Below are positions 7,664 through 30,780 of a stretch of 33,569 bases of DNA, piece by piece. Source of the stretch: a virus. Under the pieces are notes generated by a model. The model made no database searches, was not told where the DNA came from, and was given only the letters and a program-made list of their open reading frames with translations. Each line of letters starts with the position of its first letter. Within the stretch, counting starts at the first letter, position 1. The stretch covers positions 1-33,569 of IMG/VR virus record IMGVR_UViG_3300044678_002246; one strand, 5' to 3'. A program made the position numbers and the translations under genes.

Positions 7664-7700
7664 AGAGCGACGGCGAGTGATCGTCGCCGCTCTTTTTGTT
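7664..7700 (+). terminator. Strong intrinsic terminator after the major capsid gene
   Basis: AGAGCGACGGCGA (7664-7676) pairs with TCGTCGCCGCTCT (7681-7693): a 13-bp stem with one mismatch and one G-T wobble, a GTGA tetraloop and the tail TTTTTGTTT. The position, 27 bases after the capsid stop codon, is where many phages limit read-through so that coat protein mRNA is most abundant. Confidence 0.85.
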
Positions 7701-7725
7701 TCCAGTTCCTGAAGGAAGGTGTAGA

Positions 7726-7989: not shown

Positions 7990-8000
7990 GGAGATCTGCG

Positions 8001-9977: not shown

Positions 9978-9989
9978 TGGAGAGTTGAA

Positions 9990-10457: not shown

Positions 10458-10471
10458 TTAAGGAGTGACGG

Positions 10472-11118: not shown

Positions 11119-14026
11119 CGGCGACGAATCACTGCTGGACGTGTTTGTCAACATCAAGCCTGAACCTGGCTTCATGGCGATCATTGCGAAGTCTGCGCAA
11201 GACGCAATTGACGAGTACGCCCGAGTTTTCTCCACAGCGTCCATCCCATCTCCAAGACTCGGTCCTCCGAATGTTAGTGGCGGCGGATCGGGAGGCGGAG
11301 GTGGGGGGTCTTCTGGCGGCGGCGGTGGCGGCGGCGGCGGCGGAAACCCGGGGAACTATCTTCGAGATGAGCTTCGCCGAGCGATCCTCGAGTTCCAGCG
11401 AGACAAGGCATTCCTTGAAGTCGACGTTCGCATTGCGAACGATAAAGACCTGCAGGATCGGTTGCGGAACATAACATCAAATGTTGCTGGTCAGGCGAAT
11501 GCATTTCGTGCGACAGAAAACGAGGATGAGCAGTTAAATGCTCTAATCCGAATCGTTGAACTTCGTGAACGAGATCTTGCATTGCTCCGTGAGGCAACTG
11601 CTGAGCAGATTCGTGTCGCTGGCCTTGGGACTTCAGCGTTTGACCGCAGCCTTGGGTTCCGTGAGCAACGAGAGGCGGTAGAGTCGTCGTTGCTTGGGAT
11701 AAAAGGCGTAGGCAAGACTATCAACGCGGCTGATGATAGCGGAATGCGCAGACAGTTCGAAGTTCTCAATCAGATGCTTGACCAGGCACAACTCAAGCTA
11801 AAACAAGGCATTGGAGCCGAGAACCTGATTGACGTAACTGATGCCAGAGAACGCATTCAGCGAATCACAGACGACATTGACGCACTTCGGATTAAGGCCG
11901 AGGCGAAAATTGTTGTGGATCTTCAGGTCAAGGCTGATCAGGCGGCTATCAAGGAACAGTTCGATTACATCGCAGCAGGTGCAAAGGAGCAGATTTCAAG
12001 AGGGCAGATAGCCAATAAACTGGAGGAGTTTCTGATTCAGGGGCTTCCTTCTGGGGAGAAACGCCAAAACATTGCGAAGGCGAAGGCTGATCTCGACACG
12101 GCTATTCTTAATGTGAGGTTGCTTACACAGGCATATGACGGTACTCAACAAAGCGTAGATGAACTCATCGTTTCAGTTCAGAAACTAAGTACTGCACAAC
12201 TTGGATTGAGGATGCTATACGAAGACGCTCAGGAAGCGTCTGTGTCGATGAACACGCTAAGCAACAATGCTTATCAGCTTGGGCAAGCCTTTGAAGACTT
12301 CGCTGTTGGCTTCAGTCTCAACGGGATTGCTGGTGGTATTCGTGGTGCGGCGAACAACGTCGCGTTCCTTCTGAACAGTCTGTCTCAAAGCAAGGTGTTC
12401 ACGGATGCATTGACAAAGCAGTTCATTGCGATGAAGGGAAACGTCCCTGCTGCTGAAGCGGCGAAGATGGCCGAGAAGTTTTCGACGGCATTGCCATTGG
12501 TTGCTGGTATTGGCTCGGCATTGGCGATCATCGTTCTTCCGGCTCTAGTCGAGTGGCTTGAAACACTGAATGACATTGAGTCGAAATTTGAAGACATATC
12601 AGGTTTGGTGAGTGCCGAGTTTTCGAATGTGAAGTTCGACGTTGGCCTTCGTGGTGGAGAAAGGGATTTCGCTCGCTCGATCGAAAGAGCAAAAGAACTG
12701 AGAGACGTGCTTCAGCAGTTGGGAGATGTTGCGGAAAAATCCGGCGACAAAACTCAAGACCTTCAGAAATTGTTTTCTGGATTGGATGACACTGACGCTT
12801 TGTCAAACACTTTGAATCAGTTGCGTGAAGCGAACAGTTTACTGGATGGACGCAGGCAAATTCTCGAGAATCTTCGAGACAGAAGTCGCGCATCTGCAGA
12901 GAGCGGAATTGCTCTCACCCCGGAGGCAGCAGAGGCTCAGTTGTTAGCGAAAGCCAGATTCGAGCAATCGACGAATCAACTGAAGGTTTTGGCCCCTCAA
13001 CTAGAATCAGTTCGCAATTTGTACGACGAACTTCGGGTTGCCAGAGAAAACGGACTAACAGGCAAGTCAGACCCAGAACAGCTTAGTCGTACCGTAAAAT
13101 TATTCGAAGATGTAAAGAAGTCGATTGCAGCAACCTTCAAGGATCTGGATCTTGCTGATGAGGAAGCGGCAGGGAAGTTTACTGAAACGCTAAACTCAGT
13201 TCAGAGCGTAATTAACGAGTTGTCGCAGGCGTCTCAGGAGATCGAGTCATTCAGTAATCAATTGATCAATGGGCTTACTTCCGCTCAGGCGAAGATCGAC
13301 GAATTCACAGACACGCAGGAAGTGATCCGCCGGACAATCGCAGGAACTGCAAACGATCAGACGCTATTCACACTTGAGGTGCAGAGGTCTGCTCAACAGT
13401 TTCAGACGCTGATTGAGAAGATTCGCGAAGCCAAACTGGCTCTTGCTCCTACAGAAGATCTTCGAGGTCTTGTCAATAAAGAAGCAGATTCGGCCAGAGA
13501 GGCACTGCGAATTGAAACGGAGACAGAACTTCTTCTGCGGCAGAAAGATGTCCGCGATGAGATCGAGAAGATCTCTGAGAAGAAAGATAAGGCGAGCGGA
13601 AAGTCTGCACTGACGAACTTTGAGCAGTTTGCCCAGAACTTGCAAAAGAACGTGTTGTCGAATGATCCGTTGGACAGAAACACACAGGAACTTGAAAAGC
13701 TAAATCAGGAACTGGCAACACTGGATTCAGCGATCTCTGAGTTGAATGCGAACATGCGACTCGGTGGATCGCCGTCGCAGGCACTGCGTGCAACTCCGCT
13801 TGGTGGATTTGGTAATTTCAATTCTCTGGGCTTTGCGTTGGAATCAATGGCGCAGATTCGCCCAGAAAACTTCAAGGCTCCGGATACTGTCGCCAATGGA
13901 ATCGCCGACGCAGTCAACAAAGGGGTCCGTGAAGCAATGCAGGGATTTGTTGCCCCGGTTGTCGGCGAGCAAAGGCAGACGACTGATGCTGTTAGGAAAC
14001 TGAATGTGGGAGCGCGGGCACAATGA
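11111..14026 (+). CDS. Tape measure protein (971 aa)
   Basis: By far the longest helical protein in the tail module, it sets tail length and is ejected with the DNA. It starts at GTG 11111, inside the end of the frameshifted chaperone. After ~50 residues comes a poly-Gly stretch (about residues 56-79, coded by GGC-rich DNA at 11276-11343), probably a flexible hinge. Then follow long coiled coils rich in Gln, Glu, Arg and Ala, and a hydrophobic segment near residues 458-480 (ALPLVAGIGSALAIIVLPAL) likely to enter the host membrane. No lytic transglycosylase or peptidase motif is evident. At ~0.15 nm per residue the tail would be roughly 145 nm, an estimate from the family rule. Confidence 0.92.
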   Translation: MADGDESLLDVFVNIKPEPGFMAIIAKSAQDAIDEYARVFSTASIPSPRLGPPNVSGGGSGGGGGGSSGGGGGGGGGGNPGNYLRDELRRAILEFQRDKAFLEVDVRIANDKDLQDRLRNITSNVAGQANAFRATENEDEQLNALIRIVELRERDLALLREATAEQIRVAGLGTSAFDRSLGFREQREAVESSLLGIKGVGKTINAADDSGMRRQFEVLNQMLDQAQLKLKQGIGAENLIDVTDARERIQRITDDIDALRIKAEAKIVVDLQVKADQAAIKEQFDYIAAGAKEQISRGQIANKLEEFLIQGLPSGEKRQNIAKAKADLDTAILNVRLLTQAYDGTQQSVDELIVSVQKLSTAQLGLRMLYEDAQEASVSMNTLSNNAYQLGQAFEDFAVGFSLNGIAGGIRGAANNVAFLLNSLSQSKVFTDALTKQFIAMKGNVPAAEAAKMAEKFSTALPLVAGIGSALAIIVLPALVEWLETLNDIESKFEDISGLVSAEFSNVKFDVGLRGGERDFARSIERAKELRDVLQQLGDVAEKSGDKTQDLQKLFSGLDDTDALSNTLNQLREANSLLDGRRQILENLRDRSRASAESGIALTPEAAEAQLLAKARFEQSTNQLKVLAPQLESVRNLYDELRVARENGLTGKSDPEQLSRTVKLFEDVKKSIAATFKDLDLADEEAAGKFTETLNSVQSVINELSQASQEIESFSNQLINGLTSAQAKIDEFTDTQEVIRRTIAGTANDQTLFTLEVQRSAQQFQTLIEKIREAKLALAPTEDLRGLVNKEADSAREALRIETETELLLRQKDVRDEIEKISEKKDKASGKSALTNFEQFAQNLQKNVLSNDPLDRNTQELEKLNQELATLDSAISELNANMRLGGSPSQALRATPLGGFGNFNSLGFALESMAQIRPENFKAPDTVANGIADAVNKGVREAMQGFVAPVVGEQRQTTDAVRKLNVGARAQ

Positions 14027-15207
14027 GCATGTACAACGGTTACGATTTTGATGTCATTGCCATTGATCCGTCTGGTTTTCTGACATACCAGTCCGGCAAG
14101 GCTTCGTCATCGCTGAAGTTCAAGATGTCCTGCGAGCATGCCGAGGAGTTCGCACTTCGGCAGATGGGAAAATTCTGGACAGAAGCTGCGCCAAGTCCTG
14201 TGCTTCCGGTTCCATTCCCATTCGATAACTACACTGATCAGACGCGAGGCTATGGGCGAATGAATCTTGTCGCGACAGGGTTTTCCATTGAACCATTGTC
14301 TGCCGCGTGCTTCGGCAACAATCTTAGTGCCCAGAGGGCTCCTGTTGGAGATCCTGCAGACATCGACACGATGGCTTTGTACTTCGATGAAGGCGAAGAA
14401 GCAGACAATTCATGCTGCGAATGCGTAGTAACATTGACCTACGAAGAAAATCCTTGCGATTGCTGCGGGTACGATCAGAACGTATTGAGCGAAACATATC
14501 GCGAGTGGGTTGCTCATGATGATATTCTTCCGGGGACGTGTATTTCTGTGGAGCGAAATCCGGCCTACGAGATGTTGACGCTTCCGAACGGAAATTTAAT
14601 CTGGAAAGATCTTCCATCATCAACGGAAGATGAGCAGAGAGCAAGGCAGTTGAAGCCTGACTCGTATGCGTACAAGATTATTCCGAAGGCCGACATTATC
14701 GTAAGCTGGCACAACGTGCCGGTCAGAAACATCTGTGCAATTGAAAACCACTTAAGAAACTTCAGGGGAACAGTAAACGACTTAGCATGGGGCGACGTGC
14801 TTCAGTGCGATGCGGCTCCAGTTGCTCCGACGGCATGCGGATGCGGTCAGTACGAGCCAGAGACAATCATGTTTATCGACTATCAGGAAGACAGGTCGAA
14901 GAGAACCGATGCCTTCGGCGGAAACTTCTTGGTTGCTGGCGACCCAGCCCACAACATGAACACGACGACTCTCAAGCTGATCTTCAAGCAAAAGCGAATT
15001 GAGATACCCAATTCAGCGACATACTCTGACAGCAACGGCTGTCCTGACGATAATGACGAAGCCTATGGATGGAACCATTTGTTCTTTGACAGGAACACTG
15101 AAGACGATTCGCCAGGCGAGTGGATGCGTGTGGCAGTTGACAACGCAACAGAAGATCCGCTCTTTCCGCTGAAATCATTCTCTGACATATTCTACCCAGT
15201 CCTATGA
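14023..15207 (+). CDS. Tail protein downstream of tape measure, Cys-rich (394 aa)
   Basis: ATG 14023 overlaps the tape measure stop (ATGA). The slot after the tape measure usually holds distal tail or baseplate-hub proteins. The N-terminus (YDFDVIAIDPSGFLTYQSGK) is beta-rich, which would suit that role, but I cannot match it to Dit or Tal families. A dense Cys patch occurs at about residues 128-150 (SCCECVVTL, PCDCCGYD) and another is ACGCGQ near residue 270, so it may bind metal or be disulfide-stabilised. The stop overlaps the next ATG (15204-15207). Confidence 0.6.
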   Translation: MSMYNGYDFDVIAIDPSGFLTYQSGKASSSLKFKMSCEHAEEFALRQMGKFWTEAAPSPVLPVPFPFDNYTDQTRGYGRMNLVATGFSIEPLSAACFGNNLSAQRAPVGDPADIDTMALYFDEGEEADNSCCECVVTLTYEENPCDCCGYDQNVLSETYREWVAHDDILPGTCISVERNPAYEMLTLPNGNLIWKDLPSSTEDEQRARQLKPDSYAYKIIPKADIIVSWHNVPVRNICAIENHLRNFRGTVNDLAWGDVLQCDAAPVAPTACGCGQYEPETIMFIDYQEDRSKRTDAFGGNFLVAGDPAHNMNTTTLKLIFKQKRIEIPNSATYSDSNGCPDDNDEAYGWNHLFFDRNTEDDSPGEWMRVAVDNATEDPLFPLKSFSDIFYPVL

Positions 15208-17021
15208 CAACACCAAAGCGATGGACTCCCGGGGATCCGCTAACTGCTGAGCGACTCAACGAGACAATCAGAGAATCTGTTCGTCCGCGCCGAGACATTT
15301 CTCTCGGTAACGGATCGTCGCTGGTAAATGAGACTCTCGGAAACCAGTCGGCCACCGAGAGACACCAGCAGATAAAACTCGTTGTTGCTGTCACGGACTT
15401 CGCGATTTCCGGGACTCCGACAGACATCGCAGCATGGCCCGACGACATTCCGTCCGGACTGGTTAAAGAAGTCCGACTGAACCGCAGGTCAGGAACTCAT
15501 GGGCAAGATGACTCTAATAAATCCTTCCGCGCCTACGACGCTGTCGGCGGATTAAATGGAGGGATTTGCCAGACGGGGACAACCACAAACCCTGCCAGCG
15601 AGTCATCGACAACGGCAGCCAGCAAGTTGGCATGTGACGTTTTTTATGTCTTGTTTAATACAGCATCAAAGAGATGGGAAGTCATTGAGGCTGGCGGGCG
15701 CACCCATGAAATCTGGTTCACTATTGACGAGGTGCAGAGAGAACAGGAATGCGAAACAACCCTGATTGTCCGGCCAACTTACTACACAGGGGGATGCTCT
15801 ACAGGGATTCCCGGCGAGGATCAGGACGGCCTAGTTACTGTCACAGACCCATTCAGAACTCTGGAACAATACTCGGAAGAGTATCTACTTGCTGCGACAG
15901 GACGTGCAACGTGGATGTATCCACGCACTGGCAACGGTTCCAGTAGTTTATCCGCTGAATCAACGAGCAGTTCTTCGGGTGGTGAGTGCAATCCAGTCTG
16001 GATCGTGGACATTATCTACGAACCTGTAATCTGCGCTTCGTCTAGCTCATCATCGAGTAGTTCGTCATCCAGCAGCAGTTCGTCCTCAAGCAGTTCGTCC
16101 TCAAGTAGTTCTGCTTCCAGTTCTGCATCCAGTTCTGCTTCCAGTTCTGCTTCCAGTTCTGCTTCCAGTTCTGCTTCCAGTTCTGCTTCCAGTTCTGCTT
16201 CCAGTTCTGCTTCCAGTTCTGCATCCAGTTCTGCTTCCAGTTCTGCTTCCAGTTCTGCTTCCAGTTCTGCTTCCAGTTCTGCTTCCAGTTCTGCTTCCAG
16301 TTCTGCTTCCAGTTCTGCTTCCAGTTCTGCTTCCAGTTCTGCTTCCAGTTCTGCTTCCAGTTCTGCTTCAAGCTCGGCGTCTGCTTCTGCTTCTGTATCC
16401 GGAAGCAGTTCGTCCTCAAGCAGTTCAGCATCCAGCAGTTCAGCATCCAGCAGTTCAGCATCCAGCAGTTCAGCATCCAGCAGTTTAGCATCTGATTCGG
16501 TGTCTGATTCGGTGTCTGGTTCGGTGTCTGATTCGGTGTCTGGTTCGGTGTCTGGTTCGGTGTCTGGTTCGGCATCCAGCAGTAGTTCGTCATCCAGCAG
16601 TAGTTCAGTATCCAGTAGCAGTTCTGCATCCAGTAGCAGTTCTGCATCCAGTAGTAGTTCTGCATCCAGTTCCTCAGTGTCGGAATCGGGTTCGGTGTCT
16701 GGCTCTGTGTCTGGCTCTGTGTCTGGCTCTGTGTCTGGCTCCGTGTCTGGCTCTGTGTCTGGCTCTGAATCGGCGTCCAGTTCAGCGTCCAGTTCAGCGT
16801 CCAGCTCGGCGTCCAGTTCAGCGTCCACTTCGGCGTCCACTTCGGCGTCATCGGAATCTGCATCCACTTCGGCCTCTGATTCATCCGGATCATCCGGATC
16901 ATCCGGATCATCCGGCGCAAGCTGCAACATGGTTTTGATAGACGTGAGTTTTGATTCAGTTACCTGTATGCTTACAAAGACGTTCTGCAACCTAGTCACA
17001 GGCGAAATAACAACGGAGTGA
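15204..17021 (+). CDS. Giant Ser-rich repeat tail protein, probable glycosylated fibre or adhesin (605 aa)
   Basis: Residues 1-278 form an ordinary domain beginning MTTPKRWTPGDPLTAERLNE, the type of head that anchors phage appendages to the tail tip. From residue 279 to ~572 the chain is almost only Ser with Ala, Gly, Val, a few Asp/Glu and Thr. Blocks change in order: poly-Ser, SSSA units, SSSSA units, SVSG/SVSD units, SSSSSA units, SVSG again, SSAS, then SGS. A short end follows with four cysteines, CNMVLIDVSFDSVTC and an MLTKTFC segment, a small capping domain. Such Ser-rich tracts are stiffened by O-glycosylation in bacterial Ser-rich adhesins. The glycosyltransferase cassette begins 554 bases downstream. 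Confidence 0.8.
   Translation: MTTPKRWTPGDPLTAERLNETIRESVRPRRDISLGNGSSLVNETLGNQSATERHQQIKLVVAVTDFAISGTPTDIAAWPDDIPSGLVKEVRLNRRSGTHGQDDSNKSFRAYDAVGGLNGGICQTGTTTNPASESSTTAASKLACDVFYVLFNTASKRWEVIEAGGRTHEIWFTIDEVQREQECETTLIVRPTYYTGGCSTGIPGEDQDGLVTVTDPFRTLEQYSEEYLLAATGRATWMYPRTGNGSSSLSAESTSSSSGGECNPVWIVDIIYEPVICASSSSSSSSSSSSSSSSSSSSSSSSSASSSASSSASSSASSSASSSASSSASSSASSSASSSASSSASSSASSSASSSASSSASSSASSSASSSASSSASSSASSSASSSASSSASASASVSGSSSSSSSSASSSSASSSSASSSSASSSLASDSVSDSVSGSVSDSVSGSVSGSVSGSASSSSSSSSSSSVSSSSSASSSSSASSSSSASSSSVSESGSVSGSVSGSVSGSVSGSVSGSVSGSESASSSASSSASSSASSSASTSASTSASSESASTSASDSSGSSGSSGSSGASCNMVLIDVSFDSVTCMLTKTFCNLVTGEITTE
16038..16920 (+). repeat. In-frame Ser-Ala minisatellite array (12-, 15-, 18- and 9-bp units)
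   Basis: The first large block (about 16108-16370) has 22 tandem copies of a 12-bp unit related to TCTGCTTCCAGT, nearly all identical, with a few GCATCC variants. Further blocks use AGCAGTTCAGCATCC (15 bp), TCTGGTTCGGTG-type (12 bp), an 18-bp poly-Ser/Ala unit, TCTGGCTCTGTG (12 bp), TCCAGTTCAGCG (12 bp) and TCCGGATCA (9 bp). All units are multiples of three, so slippage changes length without breaking the frame. Confidence 0.95.
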
Positions 17022-17574: not shown

Positions 17575-20160
17575 ATGAAAACTGTTGATTCTGCAGAGCT
17601 ACTTAAAAGGCACGCTGAGACTTCTCGTTTGAAAAGACGAGAAAATCGAGCAAGCAATGTTCAAGAGCCTCCGTTGCAGAAATCTAAAGGCGTCGGAACA
17701 GTCCTATCGTCAATCTTCAGCACCATCGGGATTGTGGCATCGGAGGGTTGTAGTTGCAGGCGGCACGCAGTGGAGATGGATCGACGTGGCACGAAGTGGT
17801 GTCTTGAAAACATAGACACAATCGTGGGATGGCTGCAAGAAGAAGCTGTCGCAAGAAAACTGGTGTTCTTTCGTGCTGGTGTAAAGATTGCCTTGTATTC
17901 ATTACTTAAAAGCTATTCGATATTTGAAAATGTTCGTCCGGACAGCGGCGATGACAGCAGGGTCTTCAGCAGGCGCGACGACGAATGGGCAGTCGCAGTC
18001 ACGGCAGCACCGCGAGCCGGAGAATACACTCTTGCCAAATGCCTGCATTCAATCATTGCGGCTGGCTGGAGCGACCCTGTTGTCTTCGCAGAGCCTGGTA
18101 TCGAGGTGCCTGAAGGAATAACCACATTCCACAACCAAGAACGACGAGGCTGCTTTCACAACTGGCTTCACAGTGCAAAATGGGCACTCGAAAACACCAC
18201 AGCGGAAATGATCCTGTGCGTTCAAGACGACTCTCTGTTCCACCCGGACAGCAGGCAGTTCACTGAGGATCACTGCTTGTGGCCCAGTGATGACACTGGG
18301 ATTGTCAGTCTCTACACTGCCTCGCACTACCAAAGCGAAAAAGGGGTGATGAAAGCAGTCGGGATTAACGAAGTCTACACGGGCGTATGGTGGGGCACCT
18401 GTGCTGTTGTTTGGAGGAGATCCGCACTTGAGGCAGTGGTCAACCATGAGATAACAAAAAACTGGCTGGGTATTTCACCACGGAAACAGGCTGATGAAAC
18501 CCACAACCCTAAACTGCGAGCAAAAAGGGTCGCTGATTATTTTGAAGGAAGGAAAAAGCAGCCGCACCTAATCAACAACAGTGACTACGTCGCTGGGCAT
18601 GTTCTCAACCTGCTTGGCTTCCGGAAGTTCTTCGTAGACCCATCGCCAGTATCGCACATTGCCAAAGTCTCAACAATAAATCACGGAGGGAATAGCGGCA
18701 AGAGGAATTGCGCACGATGTGCAGACCACAAAAAACCACTCATGTCTCAGGTTGGGACAGTTATCAACAGGATTGAAAAGGAAGAAGACATTATGGCATC
18801 AGGAAGAGGACCAAGGCCAGCAGGAGAGTCGCTAATCATAACTCCGGGACCATCAGTTGGCGCAGTGCCGAAACATACGTTTCTGATAAGGACTTCGTTT
18901 CGAGATCCAATAGTGTCGGCCTACAGATGGAACGTCACTCAGCATACGTTGCTCAAGTCGCTCGCATCTCAAAACAACAAAGACTTTGAGATTCAATTGA
19001 TTTGCGGAGATGATGACCCGCTGCGTGAGGTTAAGTTAGCGGCATTCAGTGAAGTTGCCCCGACAACAATTGCCCCGAAGGACTGGTACAACCAGCCACA
19101 CGACGGGGTATGGAGAAGAACAACCCGAGTCGATGACGACGACATGCTGTCGATCCGGTTCGTAGAGCTTCTGGCAGAGCAGCCGTTTGACGGAACCGAA
19201 TGCTTATTCAACTTCCCGATCGGATGCCTATGGTCAGAGGGGGTATCACATCGCTGGAATTACCCAGTGAACCAGTTCATTACCATTCAGACGAACACGC
19301 GACTGACTCCGTATCATTTTGCGCATCAGTACTATCAGCAACTCCTGCCTGTTGTTATCGTGACCGAGGAGATCCACTGGATGTGGATCAGGCACCACGG
19401 GGTACTCAGTGGGGCAACACCGGGAGCAATTCCGAAGCGGTTTACGCATGGCGTGATACAGACAAACGCAAGTCTGTTCCCGTATGACTTTGCGACCATC
19501 AAAACTGCTCTAGTCCATGATAATTCTGCAGTTGTAAAAGTATTGGAATTGCGCGCAAAGTACGGACGAGTTGACAAAGATGTACTCAACATCTGCGCAA
19601 ACGCGACTGATGAGTTAACAACACTTGCAGCGACTTACGGAACTGACAAAGGTGTCACTGGGACTCCAGACAAAAACCATCAGTACACGCTGGTCTACGA
19701 TCGCCTGTTTAAGGGGATGCGAGACCAGGTCGAACACGTCCTTGAATTCGGCGTGGGCACCGGCGCAAGTCTTCGAATGTGGGCAGACTATTTCCCTAAA
19801 GCGATGATTCACGGGCTGGACGTTAAGCGAAGAAGTGTGCCACATCCTCGGATCGTAACACACAGGTTTAACTCCATAACCCCGCTTGACACACACTTCA
19901 AGTTCTCATTGGTGATTGACGACGCGAGTCACATATCGAGTCACCAAAGAGTCATGTTCGAACTGCACAGCAAACATGTCAAGCCAGGAGGGTTCTATAT
20001 AATTGAAGACCTTCATGCCTGCAGACTGGGTGGCAAGTACTTAAACGAATCTCCATCCATGCTTGAAACGTGTCGTGAATGGGTGTCCAATCCGCCGTTC
20101 GGCTGGAGGTGCCAGCTTTACGGCGACCAGTTGTGCGTGCTTCAGAAAGATGAAGTGTGA
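17575..20160 (+). CDS. Trimodular glycosyltransferase - rhamnosyltransferase-like - methyltransferase fusion (861 aa)
   Basis: Residues 1-100 have a small Cys motif (GCSCRRHAVEMDRRGTKWC). Residues ~136-385 are a GT-A-like domain with a QDDS acidic motif at 217-220 and a conserved LWPSDDTGIVSLYTASHY. Residues ~430-650 resemble putative rhamnosyltransferases (FLIRTSFRDP, then RVDDDD at 518-523, then WIRHHG). Residues ~685-861 are a class I SAM methyltransferase with YGTDKG, LEFGVGTGAS (723-732), VIDDASH and GGFYIIEDLH. Each domain has a stand-alone relative downstream (26077, 26849, 22865). The enzyme probably builds and caps a sugar chain in several steps. It opens the sugar cassette 48 bp after the tail genes. 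Confidence 0.85.
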   Translation: MKTVDSAELLKRHAETSRLKRRENRASNVQEPPLQKSKGVGTVLSSIFSTIGIVASEGCSCRRHAVEMDRRGTKWCLENIDTIVGWLQEEAVARKLVFFRAGVKIALYSLLKSYSIFENVRPDSGDDSRVFSRRDDEWAVAVTAAPRAGEYTLAKCLHSIIAAGWSDPVVFAEPGIEVPEGITTFHNQERRGCFHNWLHSAKWALENTTAEMILCVQDDSLFHPDSRQFTEDHCLWPSDDTGIVSLYTASHYQSEKGVMKAVGINEVYTGVWWGTCAVVWRRSALEAVVNHEITKNWLGISPRKQADETHNPKLRAKRVADYFEGRKKQPHLINNSDYVAGHVLNLLGFRKFFVDPSPVSHIAKVSTINHGGNSGKRNCARCADHKKPLMSQVGTVINRIEKEEDIMASGRGPRPAGESLIITPGPSVGAVPKHTFLIRTSFRDPIVSAYRWNVTQHTLLKSLASQNNKDFEIQLICGDDDPLREVKLAAFSEVAPTTIAPKDWYNQPHDGVWRRTTRVDDDDMLSIRFVELLAEQPFDGTECLFNFPIGCLWSEGVSHRWNYPVNQFITIQTNTRLTPYHFAHQYYQQLLPVVIVTEEIHWMWIRHHGVLSGATPGAIPKRFTHGVIQTNASLFPYDFATIKTALVHDNSAVVKVLELRAKYGRVDKDVLNICANATDELTTLAATYGTDKGVTGTPDKNHQYTLVYDRLFKGMRDQVEHVLEFGVGTGASLRMWADYFPKAMIHGLDVKRRSVPHPRIVTHRFNSITPLDTHFKFSLVIDDASHISSHQRVMFELHSKHVKPGGFYIIEDLHACRLGGKYLNESPSMLETCREWVSNPPFGWRCQLYGDQLCVLQKDEV

Positions 20161-20891
20161 TGGAGGGGGTAAACGCAGTCGCTGCCATGAAGACGTACAG
20201 CAGCGACGATAACGCTTCTGATCGCGAAGATATTCGCAGGGCAGTCACCACGTACCAGAATACGTGTGGCTTGCCGTTGCATGTGTTCGACGATAACTCA
20301 TGCCCGACGTATGTCGAGTATTTGAAGGGATTCAAGGGTGTTTTTCTCCACACGCACGAGGAGAATGTTGGGCCAACTGAGAACAGCAATCGCTGCATGA
20401 GTCTGTTCAAACAGTATCACGAGATCGATGCGTTGATCCTGCTGGATGACGATATCGAGTTCCTGAAGCCTGGCTGGTCAGACCTATACCTCAATGCCCT
20501 CTCAGACGAAGTTCAGCTACTGTCATTCAATGACAAAGAAATCACGCAGTCACCCGGTGTCGCGCACGGCAACTACTCACTTTCGCAATGGAGTTGTGGG
20601 GTTTGCGTGACATTGACGCGGCACTGCTGGATGAAAGCTGGAACATATGGACCATTCCCGGAAAAGTATGGATGGTGCCATATTGAGTACAACTGGCGAT
20701 GTGCGTTACTTGGGCTCATCCCAATGGATGGGTTCTATGATGTACCTGCAATCCATGACTACATAAAGATTTCCTCTTACTCAGGAAGCGAAGAAAAGCT
20801 GCGTCAAATCGAAGTCAACGGTTTATCAGAAACAGTTGTGACAACAATGGAAAAGTACAAAGCCATGAGAATGAAAATGGGCATAGCATGA
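20160..20891 (+). CDS. GT-A type glycosyltransferase (243 aa)
   Basis: The acidic motif LLDDDIEFLKPGW (residues 94-106) is the nucleotide-sugar/metal site of GT-A enzymes. The N-terminal part (LPLHVFDDNSCPTYVEYL) supplies the UDP-binding type strand and DD pair. The C-terminal part has FPEKYGWCHIEYNWRC, like an acceptor-side motif. I chose ATG 20160 (TGATG overlap with the previous stop). A GTG at 20157 adds only one Met. Sugar donor and acceptor cannot be told from sequence. Confidence 0.8.
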   Translation: MEGVNAVAAMKTYSSDDNASDREDIRRAVTTYQNTCGLPLHVFDDNSCPTYVEYLKGFKGVFLHTHEENVGPTENSNRCMSLFKQYHEIDALILLDDDIEFLKPGWSDLYLNALSDEVQLLSFNDKEITQSPGVAHGNYSLSQWSCGVCVTLTRHCWMKAGTYGPFPEKYGWCHIEYNWRCALLGLIPMDGFYDVPAIHDYIKISSYSGSEEKLRQIEVNGLSETVVTTMEKYKAMRMKMGIA

Positions 20892-21301
20892 CCAAGGTCT
20901 ACACGGGCGGAACTTTCGATCTGTTTCATGCAGGGCATGTGCGATTCCTTCGTCGGTGTGCAGATATTGGGTCTGTGACGGTTTCGGTAAACACAGATAA
21001 CTTTGTATTGCGGTATAAAGGAAGAGCCCCTGCCATCAATCTGGAAGAACGCATTATCGTCCTTGAGGCGTGTCGCTGGGTATCACAGGTTGTGGTGAAT
21101 GAAGGCGATGAAGATTCAAAAGCCGCAATTGACAAGGTCAATCCTGACGTGATTGCGGTCGGTTCCGACTGGCAGTCAAAAGACTACTGCCGGCAGATGG
21201 GTTTCACATCAGAATGGTTGGAAGCCAGAAACATTGCACTGGTATACCTGCCCTATACGGATGGAATTTCATCAACCTTGATTAAAGAGAGAATGCAATG
21301 A
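20888..21301 (+). CDS. TagD-like cytidylyltransferase (137 aa)
   Basis: This is a nucleotidyltransferase of the HxGH superfamily: GGTFDLFHAGH at residues 7-17 (with the HAGH signature at 14-17) and the C-terminal ISST signature at 127-130 (DGISSTLIKER). The 137-aa length is that of glycerol-3-phosphate cytidylyltransferase, which makes CDP-glycerol for teichoic acid. The same scaffold also makes CDP-ribitol, CDP-ethanolamine or ADP-heptose, so the substrate is open. In a glycosyltransferase cassette it suggests that the glycan carries an activated alcohol-phosphate. Start and stop overlap both neighbours by 4 bases. Confidence 0.88.
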   Translation: MTKVYTGGTFDLFHAGHVRFLRRCADIGSVTVSVNTDNFVLRYKGRAPAINLEERIIVLEACRWVSQVVVNEGDEDSKAAIDKVNPDVIAVGSDWQSKDYCRQMGFTSEWLEARNIALVYLPYTDGISSTLIKERMQ

Positions 21302-22108: not shown

Positions 22109-22128
22109 TATTGATCGCGGCGAAATCA

Positions 22129-22863
22129 ATGACCCAGTTCGTCTACCTCAACGTCATCGGTCCCGACAACGGCGAAGAACTCCGGTTGTCGATGGCATCC
22201 GTGCGGAAGAACTTCACAGGATCGTCGACCTTCACGATCATCGGTGAAAAGCCGAAGTGGTACGACGGTCACCACATTCCCGCTTCGCGACTGACGAAGA
22301 TGCGGGAACTTCCCGGACGCATGACATTCCGCGACACGCAGGCAAAGATCATGCTGGCAGCGTCTCATCCGGAGATCGATGAAGAGTTCGTCTGGATGAT
22401 GGACGACCAGTTCTTCCTGAAGCCAACGTCACTCGAGGATCTCAGAGTCTTCCGGTATGACCCGTGGTATCGAGTGAATTCGAAGCGCGAGTGGCATCGG
22501 CTGATAAGACTCACGTTTGGCGCGCTGGCTGCAAATGGTCGAGGAAACTTTCAGGCCGGCACTCATCTTCCGCATGTGTTTGAGAAGACGAAGCTACAGG
22601 AGATGTTCGCTGAATACGGGTTCCCGAATAACTTGTACCTGTTCGAAATACTGTACGAAAATCATTGGCAATGTGGTCGCACGCCGATACCTTACGGCAG
22701 TACATGGCAGGGGGTTCAGTATCCGCAGTTTCTCAAGAGATTGCTGAGACCGCTGATGACTCGCCAGTTGAACGAGATTGATGCCAATGTGCTGAATTAC
22801 CAGAGCAGCGTATGGAGGCCGACCATGCGAGATTGGCTGAGAGGTCGGTTTACGGAGGAATGA
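22129..22863 (+). CDS. Stealth-like or GT-A-like sugar transferase (244 aa)
   Basis: The protein begins MTQFVYLNVIGPDNGEELRLS, then VRKNFTGSSTFTIIGEKPKW, then FRDTQAKIMLAA, and EEFVWMMDDQFFLKP with DD at residues 92-93. The order (first strand, a GE-KPxW turn, an FRDxxxK helix and an M-DD-FF strand) recalls the conserved regions of Stealth proteins, which transfer hexose-1-phosphate, though the match is by eye. If right, it would fit with the cytidylyltransferase in making phosphodiester-linked sugars. An upstream TTG (22111) is rejected in favour of ATG 22129. Confidence 0.65.
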   Translation: MTQFVYLNVIGPDNGEELRLSMASVRKNFTGSSTFTIIGEKPKWYDGHHIPASRLTKMRELPGRMTFRDTQAKIMLAASHPEIDEEFVWMMDDQFFLKPTSLEDLRVFRYDPWYRVNSKREWHRLIRLTFGALAANGRGNFQAGTHLPHVFEKTKLQEMFAEYGFPNNLYLFEILYENHWQCGRTPIPYGSTWQGVQYPQFLKRLLRPLMTRQLNEIDANVLNYQSSVWRPTMRDWLRGRFTEE

Positions 22864-22864
22864 G

Positions 22865-23365
22865 ATGGGACTGCCATCAGAAGAACTTAATAGGTTTGGG
22901 TCTGACAAGTGTTCTGTTCACAGTTACGGCGCGTTTTATGACCAGCTTTTTGCTTCAAGGCGGTTCGAATGTCTCGTTGAGATAGGGGTAGAATCCGGCG
23001 CAAGCATCAGGGCGTGGCACAACGTCGATCATGAGATGCATGTGATAGGCGTCGATAAGCAAAAGGTCGATGGGCTTAACGTAGTTCAGGCATTCACTCC
23101 CGATTATTTTCCTTTGATGAGGCATCTCGAAAAATTCGATAAGATTCCAGACCTGATTATAGACGACGGATCACACAGGGAGTGGGATCAGGTCTTGGGG
23201 TGGCATTATCTCTCGCCATTTTTGGCCGACGGTGGAGTTTATGTCATTGAAGACATTCCTGATGATAATGTTGTGAATCGATTCCGGTTTTACGGATGGA
23301 CAATAGAAGACTTCAGGCCGACAAGTGGCATCTGGGATGATGTCATTGCATGGAGAATAAAATGA
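22865..23365 (+). CDS. Class I SAM-dependent methyltransferase (166 aa)
   Basis: GGAGG (22854-22858) precedes ATG 22865. The protein has FGSDK..HSYG at the start, the SAM-binding loop VEIGVESGAS (38-47), an acidic strand end IGVDKQK, LIIDDGSH (97-104) and GGVYVIEDI. This is the same order as in the C-terminal domain of the 861-aa fusion (LEFGVGTGAS, VIDDASH, GGFYIIEDL), so the two are homologous. The family includes sugar O-methyltransferases of macrolide type. It probably methylates a hydroxyl on a cassette sugar. Confidence 0.85.
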   Translation: MGLPSEELNRFGSDKCSVHSYGAFYDQLFASRRFECLVEIGVESGASIRAWHNVDHEMHVIGVDKQKVDGLNVVQAFTPDYFPLMRHLEKFDKIPDLIIDDGSHREWDQVLGWHYLSPFLADGGVYVIEDIPDDNVVNRFRFYGWTIEDFRPTSGIWDDVIAWRIK

Positions 23366-24333
23366 GTGGTCTTCTTCCGCAGTTGACAGTCCCAAAATTC
23401 GGCTGGCTCCCGAAAATCAGATACGTGCAAGTCGCAACCCATAGTCGATGCAACGCTGATTGCGTGTTCTGCCCGTATTCTGAATCGGAACACTTTAAGC
23501 ATCCTGGCATGATGAAGGATGATACATGGCATCGCATCCTCGCAAACCTCAGACCATGGACAGACTCGCTGATAAAGTTCTGTCCATACCTGATGCAGGA
23601 GCCACTGATCGATAAATCGATCTTCGCGAAGATTGAGGACATCTACCGATGCTTTCCGAATATCGCCGTTGAGGTCTCGACGAACGGCGCGGCATTGACT
23701 GAGACGACTGCTGAAAAGTTGTTCGCAAACTTCAAGGGCAGGAAGCACGAGATCTGGGTCAGCCATCACGGAATCAACGAAGAGACGCTGCACCACATCA
23801 TGCAGATCGACTATCAGAAGTCGACAGAGAATCTGATTCGGCTGCTGAAGATGTCGGACGGAAGATTCAAGATCCGTATCCGTGGCGCTGGGCGATCAAA
23901 GGCTGTCGATAAGATCTATTTTACTAACCAGCAATACGTTGACTACTGGGAGGAAATGTTCAACAAGCACTCGATCAACAGAAAGAATGTGTCCGTTGAT
24001 TCGTTTGAGTTTCATGATCGCGCCGGAACTCTCTTTCGCGAAGACCGTGGAGCCTGTGACTTAAACAAAGGCAAGGTCCGCGACATTGGACCGGGGCACG
24101 AGAAGTTTCACTGTTCAAGAATCGACGAGTGGGTTCACTTTATGCATGATGGATCGATGCGGTTGTGCTGCATGGACTATCACAACGAAGTTAAGCTGCC
24201 AAACATAAACGACATAGGCCTGCTTGATTACTTCCACTCCTCTGAGTATCGCGAACTTGTCATGAAGGTTCGGGGAGACATCGAATCAGAAGAGAACTTT
24301 ATTTGCAAAAGATGCACGAGCCCAGGGGGTTAA
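23362..24333 (+). CDS. Radical SAM enzyme with SPASM-like C-terminal cysteines (323 aa)
   Basis: Cys30, Cys34 and Cys37 form CNADCVFC, the CX3CX2C site that holds the [4Fe-4S] cluster for SAM cleavage. The N-terminal strand (RYVQVATHSRC) and VEVSTNGA (104-111) are the standard barrel motifs. The C-terminal part has Cys232, Cys251, the pair Cys269-Cys270 and CKRC (315-318), with HDGSMRLCC between, matching a SPASM/twitch auxiliary cluster domain. Known members modify peptides or sugars (for example epimerise or dehydrogenate). In a glycosyltransferase cassette a sugar or glycopeptide substrate is likely, but not shown. Start overlaps the methyltransferase stop (ATGA). Confidence 0.9.
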   Translation: MSGLLPQLTVPKFGWLPKIRYVQVATHSRCNADCVFCPYSESEHFKHPGMMKDDTWHRILANLRPWTDSLIKFCPYLMQEPLIDKSIFAKIEDIYRCFPNIAVEVSTNGAALTETTAEKLFANFKGRKHEIWVSHHGINEETLHHIMQIDYQKSTENLIRLLKMSDGRFKIRIRGAGRSKAVDKIYFTNQQYVDYWEEMFNKHSINRKNVSVDSFEFHDRAGTLFREDRGACDLNKGKVRDIGPGHEKFHCSRIDEWVHFMHDGSMRLCCMDYHNEVKLPNINDIGLLDYFHSSEYRELVMKVRGDIESEENFICKRCTSPGG

Positions 24334-24335
24334 TC

Positions 24336-25340
24336 ATGGCAGTTAAGTTTCCCGGAAAAGATCACAACAAGAAGCTGAATGGCGGCGCTCCTGCTGGTTG
24401 GGTAATAAAGACTCCGAAGATTCTTCAGCATGAACTGACATCCTCCCCGGCTTCTTTAGTTGGGATTATCTCGACGTGGTTCGATAGCGACATCATCGAA
24501 GCGAACGTCAAGAATTGTTTTAAGCAGGGGTTCGACAGAGTCCTGATACTCGACAATGCTTCTCACGACAAATCAGTGTCTCGGGCAGTCGCTTGCGGCG
24601 CTCAAGTCGGAGAGGTTTACGAAACGGCATTTTACGACGATGATCTTCGCATCGCTAAAGAGAACGATATTGCCAAGACCGCTGTAGAGTCGTCTTCCGG
24701 CGATCTATGGGTTGTTTCGCTTGATGCTGATGAGTTTCTGCATGGATTTGAAGGTTTGACCGTCAAGGAGTCTCTCTGTTCTCTTCCGCAGCAAGTGCGA
24801 ATAATTGGATCCCATGCAGTTGACCTGTATCCGGAATCTCCGGATGCGTACAAAATTGGAGAACATCCGGGAATCTGCATGCCAAACGGATGTTTACGAA
24901 AGGGGGTATTTTGTCCGAATCTGCACTGGAAACATGTTGCGATTCGATACTCAAATGGATTGTTTGACATTGCCCAGACTCGAGGAAACCACATTCCCTC
25001 CGTTTCAAGAGTGAGCCATGCTCCATCTGAGTCGTGCTTTTCTCTTCCGATTATTCACGCACCATTCCGACGATACGAAGACTCAAAGGCGAGGCTCAAG
25101 CGTCTCTGTGGAAAAGACAAGTCGCTTGGCAATAAACCAAGATCGGCAGGCGACGACCAAGTCACAGGGAACATGGGCGCGATCAAAAGATGGAATTGCC
25201 TCGAAGACGTTTACGCTGGACGATGGGACAGGGTTGAGATCCCGCATTGCAGAATGCTGTACGGTCGCGAAGTGACGGGCATTTGCTTGTATCCGTGGAA
25301 GAACTTCTTCAAAGATCTGACGCTGGAATCAATCCTATGA
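24336..25340 (+). CDS. Glycosyltransferase, GT2/GT92-like (334 aa)
   Basis: AGGGGG at 24324-24329 precedes ATG 24336. VGIISTWFDSDIIEANVKNC followed by RVLILDNASHD is the pattern of family-2-like enzymes that scan for a shifted residue and then bind UDP. The acidic motif is SLDADEF (128-134). The C-terminal third is basic (FRRYEDSKARLKRL) with cysteines and probably binds the acceptor. It is the longest single-domain transferase of the cassette. Donor sugar unknown. Confidence 0.82.
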   Translation: MAVKFPGKDHNKKLNGGAPAGWVIKTPKILQHELTSSPASLVGIISTWFDSDIIEANVKNCFKQGFDRVLILDNASHDKSVSRAVACGAQVGEVYETAFYDDDLRIAKENDIAKTAVESSSGDLWVVSLDADEFLHGFEGLTVKESLCSLPQQVRIIGSHAVDLYPESPDAYKIGEHPGICMPNGCLRKGVFCPNLHWKHVAIRYSNGLFDIAQTRGNHIPSVSRVSHAPSESCFSLPIIHAPFRRYEDSKARLKRLCGKDKSLGNKPRSAGDDQVTGNMGAIKRWNCLEDVYAGRWDRVEIPHCRMLYGREVTGICLYPWKNFFKDLTLESIL

Positions 25341-26080
25341 CAGCAATCAAGCCCCGAGGCATCACCGTCTGCGTCGACTACGCCGACATCCTCGCTCTGA
25401 CGCTCCCGTACAACCGGGAGTTCTTCAGCGAGTTCATGGTGGTCACGACGGTCAAGGATCATCAGACAATCCACCTCGCGCAGGAGAACGACTGTCATGT
25501 GCATCTCAGCGATGCTTTTTACGCTCGGGGCGCTGCGTTCAATAAGTTTGCAGCGATGGAAGAAGGGCTTGACGTTTTCGGTCGGCACGACTGGATGTGC
25601 ATCATTGATGCTGACATCGTCATCCCGAAGAACAAACTCGCCTGGGTGCCGAAGATCGGAAAGATCTACACGCCGCATCGCAGGATTCTGCACCAGATCC
25701 CGACGGAGATCCCGGAACATCGCCTATGGAGACAGTCGAAGAGAGCGATGAACAACGAAGAATTCGCAGGCTACTTCCAGTTGTTCCATGCGAGCGATCC
25801 AGTCCTCCAGAAGACTCCGTGGCATGAGACGGATTGGACGTGGGCAGGCGGCGCTGACTCGTTCTTCCATCAGAAGTGGTCAGAGTCGAATAAGGTTCGC
25901 CCACCGTTCGAGGTTCTGCATCTCGGTCCTCCGTTTATCAACTGGTGCGGACGAGTCACTCCGTTTGCAGACGGAACGACACCTGAGAAGGCGATGCTTC
26001 GTAACGAACATCGGATGATGCTGCTGAAGAATCGCCGTGAGAACAAACAGGACCGATACAAAGCGGAGAAGTTGAAGTGA
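25337..26080 (+). CDS. GT-A type glycosyltransferase-like protein (247 aa)
   Basis: ATG 25337 is in an ATGA overlap. The core is ITVCVDYADILALTLPYN, FMVVTTVKDHQT and then CIIDADIVIPKN with DAD at residues 91-93. Conserved-looking residues follow: YFQLFHASDP and WAGGADSFFHQKWSES, then VLHLGPPFINWCGR. These fit the fold of small GT-A enzymes that use a DxD motif. The C-terminus is basic. No closer relative in this window is evident. Confidence 0.75.
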   Translation: MTAIKPRGITVCVDYADILALTLPYNREFFSEFMVVTTVKDHQTIHLAQENDCHVHLSDAFYARGAAFNKFAAMEEGLDVFGRHDWMCIIDADIVIPKNKLAWVPKIGKIYTPHRRILHQIPTEIPEHRLWRQSKRAMNNEEFAGYFQLFHASDPVLQKTPWHETDWTWAGGADSFFHQKWSESNKVRPPFEVLHLGPPFINWCGRVTPFADGTTPEKAMLRNEHRMMLLKNRRENKQDRYKAEKLK

Positions 26081-28510: not shown

Positions 28511-29382
28511 AAGAGTTGATTTTATTCCTGAGTGTCTGCCTTGGTGCGATATTGGCGGCGATTCAGGACGACCCGACGGTTCAGAAACCTGCTCCGGACA
28601 AAATTGATCTGGAGCCACAGATTATCTTCCCGACGATCCCGGTACTCGACGAGGGAAATGTTCCGGAAGAAGATCTCCCTGTTCCTCCTCCGCGCCCGAA
28701 ACGCGGACCGGAGTTCGTCTCGAAGCTGAACGAAGAGACGTGGCTTGTCATCGAGTCACCCGGGCCGCTAATGATCTTCGACTTCCCGGAGGGTTTGGTC
28801 GAGATCGATTCGGACGACGGCGCGAGACCGATGAAGGTCAAGGGAAAGTTCGCTGACGGGACTGGTAAAGTCGAGACTCGCACGTTCACGAGCAAACACC
28901 TTTACTTTGTAAATGCGGTGAAGGCCGGTCAGATGGAGATGCTGATCATCCCCGAGGGAGCGATCAGTAAGACTCAGTCCCAGCGACACAAGATTGTCGT
29001 CATGGGGCAGGGTCCGATTCCTCCTCCAGATCCGGAGCCCGAGCCTGACCCTGACCCGGATCCAATGCCAGTTCCGACCGGGAACGTAGTGATCTCGATT
29101 GTCGAGGATGTTCAGAACAGGAAGCCTGACACGGCGATTCTGTTGAATGCCATGGCGAGTTGGAACTCTCTGAAAGACGCTGGTAACGACTGGCGTCTTT
29201 ATGACGTTGCGACCAGCGAGCCAAAGGGAAAGCAGGCAGTCGAAGATGCGAAGTCTGCTGAACTTCCGGCGATGATCATTCGCGACAAGGAGACCGACAA
29301 GATCCTGCGAGTGATTCCGTTGCCGAAAGATTTCGACTCGCTGAAAAGAATTCTTTCTGAACTGGGGGTGAAAGGTGTCTGA
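28507..29382 (+). CDS. Secreted protein with Pro-rich linker and possible thioredoxin-fold end (291 aa)
   Basis: Residues 1-19 (MKELILFLSVCLGAILAAI) look like a signal peptide or anchor. A beta-rich domain follows (PEFVSKLNEETWLVIESPG) up to a Pro/Asp linker (PPPDPEPEPDPDPDPMPVP, about 173-191). The last ~100 residues (NVVISIVED, ALKx-like helix with WRLYDV, ELPAMIIRDKETDKILRVIP, DFDSLKRIL) recall a thioredoxin fold with its cis-Pro strand but without CxxC. It may be a structural or docking thioredoxin-like domain. ATG 28507 lies in an ATGA overlap. Confidence 0.6.
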   Translation: MKELILFLSVCLGAILAAIQDDPTVQKPAPDKIDLEPQIIFPTIPVLDEGNVPEEDLPVPPPRPKRGPEFVSKLNEETWLVIESPGPLMIFDFPEGLVEIDSDDGARPMKVKGKFADGTGKVETRTFTSKHLYFVNAVKAGQMEMLIIPEGAISKTQSQRHKIVVMGQGPIPPPDPEPEPDPDPDPMPVPTGNVVISIVEDVQNRKPDTAILLNAMASWNSLKDAGNDWRLYDVATSEPKGKQAVEDAKSAELPAMIIRDKETDKILRVIPLPKDFDSLKRILSELGVKGV

Positions 29383-30181
29383 GGAAATCGAACAGATCAT
29401 TGATGAGACTGGCGAGACTCGCCGACTCGGATCTCTGGCTCCTCCGGAGGGATTCGTTTCGGCGTTCAACACGTTTGAGCAGGAACATCCGGTCTGGGAT
29501 GACGCTGACATTAAACGGGTGATTCTGGATGCGAACAGAACTCCGCGCCGGACAGTGTTTACCAAGGAGTGGATTCAGAGCCAGGGCAACTTCGGCTCCT
29601 GCAACGGATACGCTGGCGCTGGTGCCTTGTCAAAGGCCAGATACCTGCGAGGCATTCAGGACAAGCTGAAACTTTCCGGAGCTTTCATCTACTCGCTCAT
29701 TAACGGTGGGCAGGATAACGGGTCTGCTTTGGAAAGCGGCCTGAAGGTCATTGGAACTCACGGGGCTCCTCCAGAGTCATTGGTTCCGTGGAACATGATT
29801 TACCCCAAGCAACAGCCTTCAAACGCCAAGGCGGAAGCCCTGAAGCATCGTGGGCTGAAGTGCTACGCTGTGCAGACGAAACAGGGATTTCGGACGGCTT
29901 TGGCCGCTGGGTTTCCTGTGATCGTTGCTGTTCACGCCGGACGCAATTTCCAGAAAGTGAATGCCCAGGGAATTGCCTCGGCGGATTCCGGCGGCGGCAA
30001 CCATGCGATCCACTGCGACGACATCAGGATCGTTGGCGGGCAGGAAGTTTACGACTCCTGCAATTCGTGGGGCGTGACTTACGGCGATCAGGGTCGGGCT
30101 TTGCTGACGTGGGATTCGTTTGCGCAGACTTTTGGAAGACATCGGTTTTATGCCGTCGCTAGCACCCTTGAGGGGGAGTAG
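29375..30181 (+). CDS. Papain-family (C1-type) cysteine peptidase (268 aa)
   Basis: The catalytic set is in order: Gln70 (oxyanion), Cys76 in NFGSCNGYAG, His210 in GGGNHAIHC and Asn230 in SCNSWG, which is the papain Q-C-H-N layout. The segment SCNGYA replaces the usual SCWAF. The N-terminus (EEIEQIIDETGETRRL) may be a short pro-region. No signal peptide is visible, so release would need a holin or a virion. GTG 29375 overlaps the previous stop by 8 bases. In a phage lysis-like block it could act as an endolysin-type enzyme against a protein-containing wall, or process virion or host proteins. Confidence 0.88.
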   Translation: MSEEIEQIIDETGETRRLGSLAPPEGFVSAFNTFEQEHPVWDDADIKRVILDANRTPRRTVFTKEWIQSQGNFGSCNGYAGAGALSKARYLRGIQDKLKLSGAFIYSLINGGQDNGSALESGLKVIGTHGAPPESLVPWNMIYPKQQPSNAKAEALKHRGLKCYAVQTKQGFRTALAAGFPVIVAVHAGRNFQKVNAQGIASADSGGGNHAIHCDDIRIVGGQEVYDSCNSWGVTYGDQGRALLTWDSFAQTFGRHRFYAVASTLEGE

Positions 30182-30183
30182 TC

Positions 30184-30780
30184 ATGCAAAACGTCGTCTT
30201 TCTGCTTCTGTGCTGTCTTTCCGGGCCTCCGGAGATCTTCTCGGCGACCGGCGTTTACGCTGAAAAACCGAAAGCGACTCAGGATCCGTATCTCATCATG
30301 TTCACAGCAGACTGGTGCGGGCCATGTCGGGCATGGAAGAATTCCGGGAAGAAGAAGCAGATCGAGGAAGCCGGCGTTTCTGTGACGCTCGTTGACATCG
30401 ACAGGAATCCAGAGTACCGGATCGCCGGAGGACCGCTTCCAGCAGTGGAGCTGTTCCCGACGTTCTGGTTAATGGTCCCGCCCAATCAGAAGCCAGTGAA
30501 GGTCTGGGTTGGCACAGTTTCGCACACAGATGTGCGGGCGAATTTGCGGATCAGGAGATCAAAAGATGACCTGGACAAATGGGTTCGCAGCAATTACACC
30601 GAGCGAACCACGTTAAAGATGGGCATGGAAAAGAATGCGGACGTGTATATTCATCTCACGGATGGGACCGGCGGGACGCACGTTTTCACAAAAGAGCAGG
30701 TTTCTGGGCTGGATTTATGGGTTGCTTTGGCACTTCATGACGCTTTGCATTCCGCAAAGATCAGTCCGTTTGTAGACTGA
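30184..30780 (+). CDS. Secreted thioredoxin-like protein (198 aa)
   Basis: The redox motif WCGPC (residues 44-48) follows the strand YLIMFTADWC, with VTLVDIDRNPEY, then PAVELFPTFWLM as the cis-Pro strand, and VWVGTVSHTD. The first ~20 residues (MQNVVFLLLCCLSG) are hydrophobic and likely a signal peptide, so it would act outside the cytoplasm. The last ~90 residues extend beyond the core fold. ATG 30184 is three bases after the peptidase stop. It could keep the active-site Cys of the peptidase reduced, or oxidise and reduce virion cysteines. Confidence 0.85.
   Translation: MQNVVFLLLCCLSGPPEIFSATGVYAEKPKATQDPYLIMFTADWCGPCRAWKNSGKKKQIEEAGVSVTLVDIDRNPEYRIAGGPLPAVELFPTFWLMVPPNQKPVKVWVGTVSHTDVRANLRIRRSKDDLDKWVRSNYTERTTLKMGMEKNADVYIHLTDGTGGTHVFTKEQVSGLDLWVALALHDALHSAKISPFVD

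Follow-up and report, generated by a model that had tools for sequence, protein, structure and literature searches.

A conserved family of radical SAM/Twitch enzymes linked to glycosyltransferases in phages

What does a radical SAM enzyme do among the glycosyltransferases (GTs) of a phage? The question is raised by a gene, here called rSAM, in a marine-type IMG/VR virus record of 33,569 bases; this whole stretch of DNA is referred to as the window, and among its PHROG hits are a portal protein (2e-11) and a terminase large subunit (3e-86). The initial annotation had described the product as a radical SAM/SPASM-like enzyme with two kinds of iron-sulfur cluster, encoded in a sugar cassette between a methyltransferase and GTs. 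The translated window showed an open frame coding for a protein of 323 residues (Table 1), and both the Pfam Radical_SAM profile (PF04055; residues 28-163, 32.7 bits, cut-off 29.5) and the SPASM profile (residues 251-319, 30.1 bits, cut-off 21.5) scored above their cut-offs, which confirms the enzyme class. An alternative in-frame ATG is found at 23350, but the start at 23362 is favoured because a GGAG lies directly ahead of it. The methyltransferase gene overlaps this start by 4 nt and the GT-like genes starting at 24303 and 25247 lie on the other side, so the placement in the cassette was described correctly. Among NCBIfam models, 19 were matched up to E 0.1, all far below their own cut-offs. 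The best of them, the tungsten-oxidoreductase maturase TIGR04317, reached 42.1 bits against a cut-off of 380 and covered the N-terminal half only; NF033640 (twitch domain-containing radical SAM protein) reached 31.0 bits against a curated cut-off of 170, and the EpeE/YydG equivalog TIGR04078 was absent among the 19. These assignments were rejected.

Table 1. Features of the rSAM gene and the surrounding cassette in the window
Feature	Position	Strand	Basis
Virion-type 605-aa protein, very long Ser-rich repeat	15204..17021	+	translation; Ser density
861-aa fusion, GT-like with C-terminal sugar O-methyltransferase-like part	17575..20160	+	PF11316 3e-6; 3ssm
Cytidylyltransferase	20888..21301	+	PF01467 1.4e-20; 1coz glycerol-3-phosphate cytidylyltransferase 3e-19
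Cassette protein, very weakly Stealth/GT-like	22111..22863	+	PF11380 E 0.049; PHROG 7999, unknown
Class I methyltransferase	22865..23365	+	PHROG methyltransferase 4e-13; Pfam Methyltransf_24 just below cut-off
Radical SAM/Twitch enzyme (rSAM)	23362..24333	+	Pfam Radical_SAM and SPASM above cut-off; BtrN profile match; AlphaFold2 model
CX3CX2C motif C30/C34/C37, radical SAM cluster	23449..23472	+	sequence; 21/21 members
Twitch cysteines C251, C269, C315, C318 and invariant C270	24112..24315	+	CX12GX4C...CXXC; 21/21; aligned to BtrN C-terminal domain
Conserved tail, last residues SPGG	24316..24330	+	family alignment; model confidence low there
Partner GT (Glyco_tranf_2_4), probable start ATG 24336	24303..25340	+	PF13704 27.6 bits, cut-off 27.5
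Second GT-like protein	25247..26080	+	PF13704 E 9.6e-5, below cut-off

To see which parts of the protein are kept we compared 21 full-length or nearly full-length family members (20 distinct sequences). Six cysteines had been listed in the C-terminal part, with their conservation in homologues proposed as a check, and all six are found at the given positions. C251, C269, C270, C315 and C318, like C30, C34 and C37 of the CX3CX2C motif, are each present in every member, whereas C232 is a cysteine in only three. Further invariants include E80-P81, H135-H136, H218, R220-A221, R253 and H259. The stretch C251-X12-G264-X4-C269 matches the start of the SPASM motif, CX9-15GX4C, and is followed by C315-XX-C318; C270 and C232 are not ligands of the SPASM/Twitch motif. 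The full SPASM motif has seven cysteines, CX9-15GX4C...CX2CX5CX3C...C (PMC6231123), of which only the first two and one CX2C are present here, and a full SPASM domain with two auxiliary clusters was therefore rejected. Since the motif stops after CXXC and the protein terminates 5 residues after C318, the C-terminal domain is, as judged from its motif, a Twitch domain with four predicted Cys ligands for one auxiliary cluster. The SPASM-like label is thus right for the Pfam profile and too wide for the domain itself, while motif, profile and fold all back the presence of two iron-sulfur sites, the radical SAM cluster and a single auxiliary cluster. The protein ends in a conserved tail (S320 and P321 in 19/21, G322 in 21/21, G323 in 20/21 members), beyond which the reading frame continues in contig L036. 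As the codons of this tail are G-rich, it could have been a mere ribosome-binding site of the next gene; this was rejected because the tail is kept also in the cellular copy L020, where the next gene lies on the other strand.

The closest enzyme of known structure was searched for by fold and by sequence profile. A first structure model, built from 11 sequences, had a pLDDT of 73.4, and a second one (AlphaFold2, 18 sequences) a pLDDT of 85.4 and a pTM of 0.86. With the second model BtrN ranked first both in Foldseek (E 1.9e-11) and, among the matches listed, in VIA (Z 20.2, rmsd 2.9, 232 residues aligned), where it was followed by ChlB (19.1, rmsd 3.4-3.6) and then, at about 18, by DesII, CteB and SuiB. 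In the search with the first model, BtrN (Z 16.2) was level with SuiB and others. The family profile A3 found BtrN at E 3.3e-25 in an alignment that includes the C-terminal domain, and the narrower queries gave 3.6e-7 (profile of close members) and 7.7e-5 (single sequence). On these profiles and predicted models BtrN is the nearest solved relative, and a shared fold shows no function. BtrN, a 2-deoxy-scyllo-inosamine dehydrogenase acting on a cyclitol (PDB 4m7t), likewise has a radical SAM barrel and a Twitch domain with four auxiliary-cluster cysteines. In contrast to BtrN, rSAM is about 75 residues longer, has CC where BtrN has CF after the second ligand motif, and belongs to a family set apart by the SPGG tail and by a phage GT partner. 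The peptide epimerase EpeE/YydG (PDB 8ai1) has the CX3CX2C and DG....CC motifs in common with rSAM, with its Cys223 at the position of C270. It differs in its peptide substrate and by weak overall similarity (C-terminal match 0.7 bits, fold Z 15.7). DesII deaminates or oxidises a TDP sugar. Both DesII (PDB 8hzv; Z 18.0) and BlsE (PDB 7vob; Z 15.7), named cytosylglucuronate decarboxylase in the PDB, are sugar-metabolism radical SAM enzymes that resemble rSAM in fold, without orthology at the sequence level.

Relatives of rSAM at 35-98% identity were found mainly in virus contigs. An initial viral_contigs scan yielded three contigs at 96-98%, and alignment-based scans added L011/L012 (67-68%), L013 (60%), L014 (58%), L031-L038 (45-48%), L052 (38%), L053/L054 (35-36%) and the fragment L056. 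These scans were bounded by the peptide patterns used, the later of which contain the CC motif, and the C270 counts for L031-L038 and L052-L054 may therefore be biased; the members found by patterns outside the CC site all have C270. A single scan of genome_contigs gave six matches from 121 candidate stretches: Minicystis rosea (60%), three SAR324 metagenome-assembled genomes (MAGs; 52-55%), a further SAR324 fragment and a distant Vibrio protein with S in place of C270. By profile search (E <= 1e-50) the family turned up in a single genome among 282 from the Minicystis phylum and in 3 of 52 from the SAR324 phylum, and is thus rare in cells. Matches in cultured phages (12 records, all below 25% identity) held no family member, and those examined in Yersinia and Erwinia phages were longer proteins in other neighbourhoods; a plasmid search gave a single distant match, in Vibrio. 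In a tree the four full-length cellular copies (L018-L021) grouped together against three outgroup rows, with 14 viral rows outside that test. We do not claim a direction of transfer, because the viral rows are uncounted, the tree joins long branches and its deep forks are not settled. The SAR324 MAG L022 carries a truncated copy (4878-5210, about query residues 16-70). In Minicystis rosea (L018) the family member directly follows a second, distant radical SAM/Twitch gene (5658-6992), and a gene for an APH-type kinase lies downstream.

The gene is under purifying selection. By simple Nei-Gojobori counts its dN/dS was the lowest among the genes compared, both between the window and L002 (0.033; 12 genes, the others 0.040-0.259) and between the window and L003 (0.021; 9 genes, the others 0.063-0.200). 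Taken with the 35-98% identity of the relatives, values of 0.02-0.03 indicate that rSAM is conserved by more than chance. Between the window and L011/L012, rSAM is kept at 67-68% identity, as compared to 45-49% for the partner GTs and about 29-34% for structural proteins. This implies that the reaction is under strong constraint, which makes the enzyme a good target for testing sugar-modifying radical enzymes in phages.

In viruses the recurrent partner of rSAM is a GT. We counted 20 virus contigs (the window, L002, L003, L004, L011-L014, L031-L038, L052-L054 and L056), and in 18 of them the immediate neighbour of rSAM is a GT-type protein. Homologues of the window's partner GT adjoin rSAM in L002, L003, L004, L011, L012 and L014, and in L013 such a homologue is fused to a sulfotransferase. 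The neighbour is a GT4-GT25 fusion in L031-L038 (L032 was scanned, and the other seven are 84-99% identical by tblastn) and a GT2-type protein in L053/L054. In the remaining two contigs, L052 and L056, the immediate neighbours are without Pfam match and no GT was recognised there; in L052 a GT2 is encoded at a greater distance upstream, and the downstream side carries NeuB, CTP_transf_3 and an aminotransferase. This L052 region (6217-12100) also has genes for an AdoMet decarboxylase and a sulfatase near the family member, a gene set that suggests viral synthesis of nonulosonic acid. As L002 and L004 are identical across the compared stretch and L031-L038 are one lineage, the independent cases of GT linkage number about six. 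Within about 17 kb, only rSAM and GT-type proteins match between L014 and the window, and the linkage thus spans virus lineages without structural genes in common. When the partner GT was used as the query in a reverse search, 6 contigs were confirmed from 97 candidate stretches and all six carry rSAM; this search missed L013. In cultured phages the partner GT had no match. The second GT-like protein is conserved in L002, L003, L011, L012 and L014. Genes or domains of methyltransferase type also flank rSAM, with Methyltransf_24 in the window and L002, Methyltransf_25 in L003, Methyltransf_11 in L014 and, in L011, the C-terminal part of a 450-aa protein. More distant viral Twitch relatives (L057, L060, L063, L064 and L072) adjoin methyltransferase or GT-type genes. 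Among the scanned neighbours of the four full-length cellular copies there was no GT Pfam match; an alpha-amylase-type protein is encoded two genes away in L019.

We also compared ORFs near and far from rSAM for GT content. The scan took in 73 of 125 near ORFs and 65 of 76 far ORFs, with families listed as the best 25 of 38 and of 50. Redundant loci (L031-L033, L035, L037, L038), L017, L059, L061, L062, L066, L068, L069 and some single ORFs were left out, and L063:8746-9546, which already looked like a GT, was put in by hand. Given these choices, the scan supports enrichment of GTs near rSAM and does not prove it.

Other genes of the window cassette also have sugar-related matches. Residues 667-816 of the 861-aa fusion match PDB 3ssm, a mycinamicin sugar methyltransferase, at E 1.4e-18, and are thereby macrolide-sugar O-methyltransferase-like. 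The methyltransferase next to rSAM matches 3ssm weakly (E 0.0012), as it does demethylmacrocin O-methyltransferase (E 0.002), an enzyme found among the PDB matches of the window's methyltransferase domains. The cytidylyltransferase may, judged by its homologues, supply an activated sugar or alditol precursor. Together with the GT adjacency, these matches bear out the role in a sugar cassette suggested earlier. No flippase or polymerase was recognised, only single hydrophobic segments. Immediately upstream of the cassette lies the gene for the 605-aa virion-type protein, a natural candidate for the O-glycan acceptor. Its Ser-rich (SSSA-like) repeat spans roughly 300 residues. The N-terminal part of this protein is common to L002, L003, L011 and L012 while the remainder differs, and the Ser-rich stretches are shorter in L002, L003 and L011 than in the window. 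The candidate acceptor was seen only in the window's own lineage and L002, L003 and L011/L012; the coding strand of the sequenced flanks showed no comparable repeat in L013, L014, L031-L038 or L052-L054.

Taken together, our results suggest, at a probability of about 0.45, that the phage rSAM/Twitch enzyme tailors a glycan built by the cassette GTs, most likely on a virion protein of the same late operon; the host surface is a possible site as well. This reading is favoured by the GT adjacency, by what L014 shares with the window and by the reverse search, and also by the sulfotransferase-GT fusion in L013, NeuB and CTP_transf_3 near the L052 copy, and the methyltransferase domains of differing Pfam assignment beside rSAM in the window, L003, L011 and L014. 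Counted against it, or against epimerisation as its chemistry, are the cellular copies without GT neighbour, L052 and L056, the lineage-limited acceptor, the fact that BtrN is a dehydrogenase with F at the C270 position, the frequency of C270 in Twitch-like proteins (see below), and the presence of the peptide-modifying ChlB, CteB and SuiB among the fold neighbours that are tied or at most about 2 Z units apart.

How could such a glycan be changed? In the proposed mechanism the [4Fe-4S] cluster at CX3CX2C would cleave SAM, and the 5'-deoxyadenosyl radical would take a hydrogen from a sugar carbon. The carbon radical could then follow one of two routes. In the first, the thiol of the invariant C270, beside ligand C269, would re-quench it from the opposite face to give an epimerised sugar. 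In EpeE, Cys223 is reported to be the H-atom donor, with the auxiliary cluster assisting in its regeneration (PMC5682303, PMC8326336). A PDB chain carrying C223A places Cys223 as the second C of the CC pair, and C270 aligns with it in a weak local alignment anchored by DG....CC. The sugar epimerase NeoN also uses a cysteine donor, Cys249 (PMC10991966), whose position relative to C270 is outside this comparison. As a control we analyzed SPASM-family loci of 50 SAR324-group genomes (30 loci, 28 with the motif and 2 without), and a cysteine at the C270 position was present in 12/14 short-tailed (Twitch-like) proteins and in 0/14 long-tailed ones. This weakens C270 as an epimerase marker: because many Twitch-type proteins have the CC pair it is not diagnostic, and as the thiol is a feature of a large Twitch group with mostly unknown reactions, epimerisation with C270 as H donor would, by analogy with EpeE, be only slightly preferred over a BtrN-like dehydrogenation. 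That these enzymes are a previously undescribed family inverting a sugar stereocentre on the already transferred virion glycan, with C270 as H donor, is accordingly a tentative and rather doubtful proposal. Among L080-L109, the cysteine after the second auxiliary ligand splits the proteins by tail length, possibly a functional divide.

In the second route the carbon radical would be oxidised by way of the auxiliary cluster, the course proposed for BtrN, to give a keto sugar. The enzyme would then be a dehydrogenase that turns a sugar or cyclitol hydroxyl into a ketone by a two-electron oxidation, passes the electrons to the auxiliary cluster and feeds a later transfer or reduction. BtrN is the best match in both sequence and fold, and its auxiliary cluster, fully cysteine-ligated and probably the site that accepts electrons when the substrate loses two of them (PMC9012708, PMC6231123), has the four-cysteine arrangement predicted here. 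However, the C270 thiol beside the cluster ligand would be expected to quench the radical, and the Pfam scan of the window cassette noted no dedicated partner aminotransferase or reductase. We therefore regard a dehydrogenase as doubtful too.

Modification of a peptide, in which residues of a virion protein (the Ser-rich one, for example) would be epimerised or crosslinked before or after its glycosylation, is in our view unlikely. EpeE, a leader-independent enzyme with two [4Fe-4S] clusters (PMC8326336), has the same CC arrangement, peptide-modifying enzymes are close in fold and the huge Ser-rich protein is encoded just upstream of the cassette. Still, in the predicted model the first barrel strand (21-24) begins after only about 18 residues, which leaves no room for the N-terminal RRE of the RiPP maturase type (SkfB, CteB, SuiB); no small peptide-precursor gene travelling with rSAM was recognised among the loci read, and the Ser-rich protein was not seen in the flanks of the lineages named above. 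The feature that stays constant is the GT linkage. Finally, a general metabolic or host-takeover enzyme that merely hitch-hikes with GTs, as might be read from cellular relatives in unrelated settings (e.g. NifU/cysteine desulfurase-like genes, dUTPase, ABC transporter), is very unlikely given a GT adjacency that recurs over several phage lineages with differing partner families (GT2-type, GT4-GT25 fusion, sulfotransferase-GT fusion).

If the family does invert a sugar stereocentre on the virion glycan, unrelated phages would have recruited the same radical enzyme together with different GTs, methyltransferases and sulfotransferases, and the resulting virion glycans would be ones that host GTs cannot build. 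If virion glycans are edited by this enzyme, radical chemistry would be a further means for phages to alter their surface. Such modules could then be searched for by the signature CX3CX2C, MQEP/MNEP, SHH, H[DN]RAG, CCM[DL]Y and CXXC, with GG as the last residues of the tail. In the open literature, with subscription journals mostly outside the search, we found no paper on this rSAM/Twitch family or on a radical SAM enzyme acting on virion glycans. Host-recognition regions of pelagimyophages contain radical SAM gene cassettes in a region that also carries glycosyltransferases (PMC7029224). The likeness to rSAM is one of description; the accessible text of that report presents them just as cassettes and describes neither their cysteines nor a pairing with GTs. 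In the accessible part of another study, radical SAM and glycosyltransferases were both enriched in marine viral contigs (PMC7150976).

Downstream of the cassette, the window encodes a peptidase-like protein (29375-30181) followed by a thioredoxin-like one (30184-30780).
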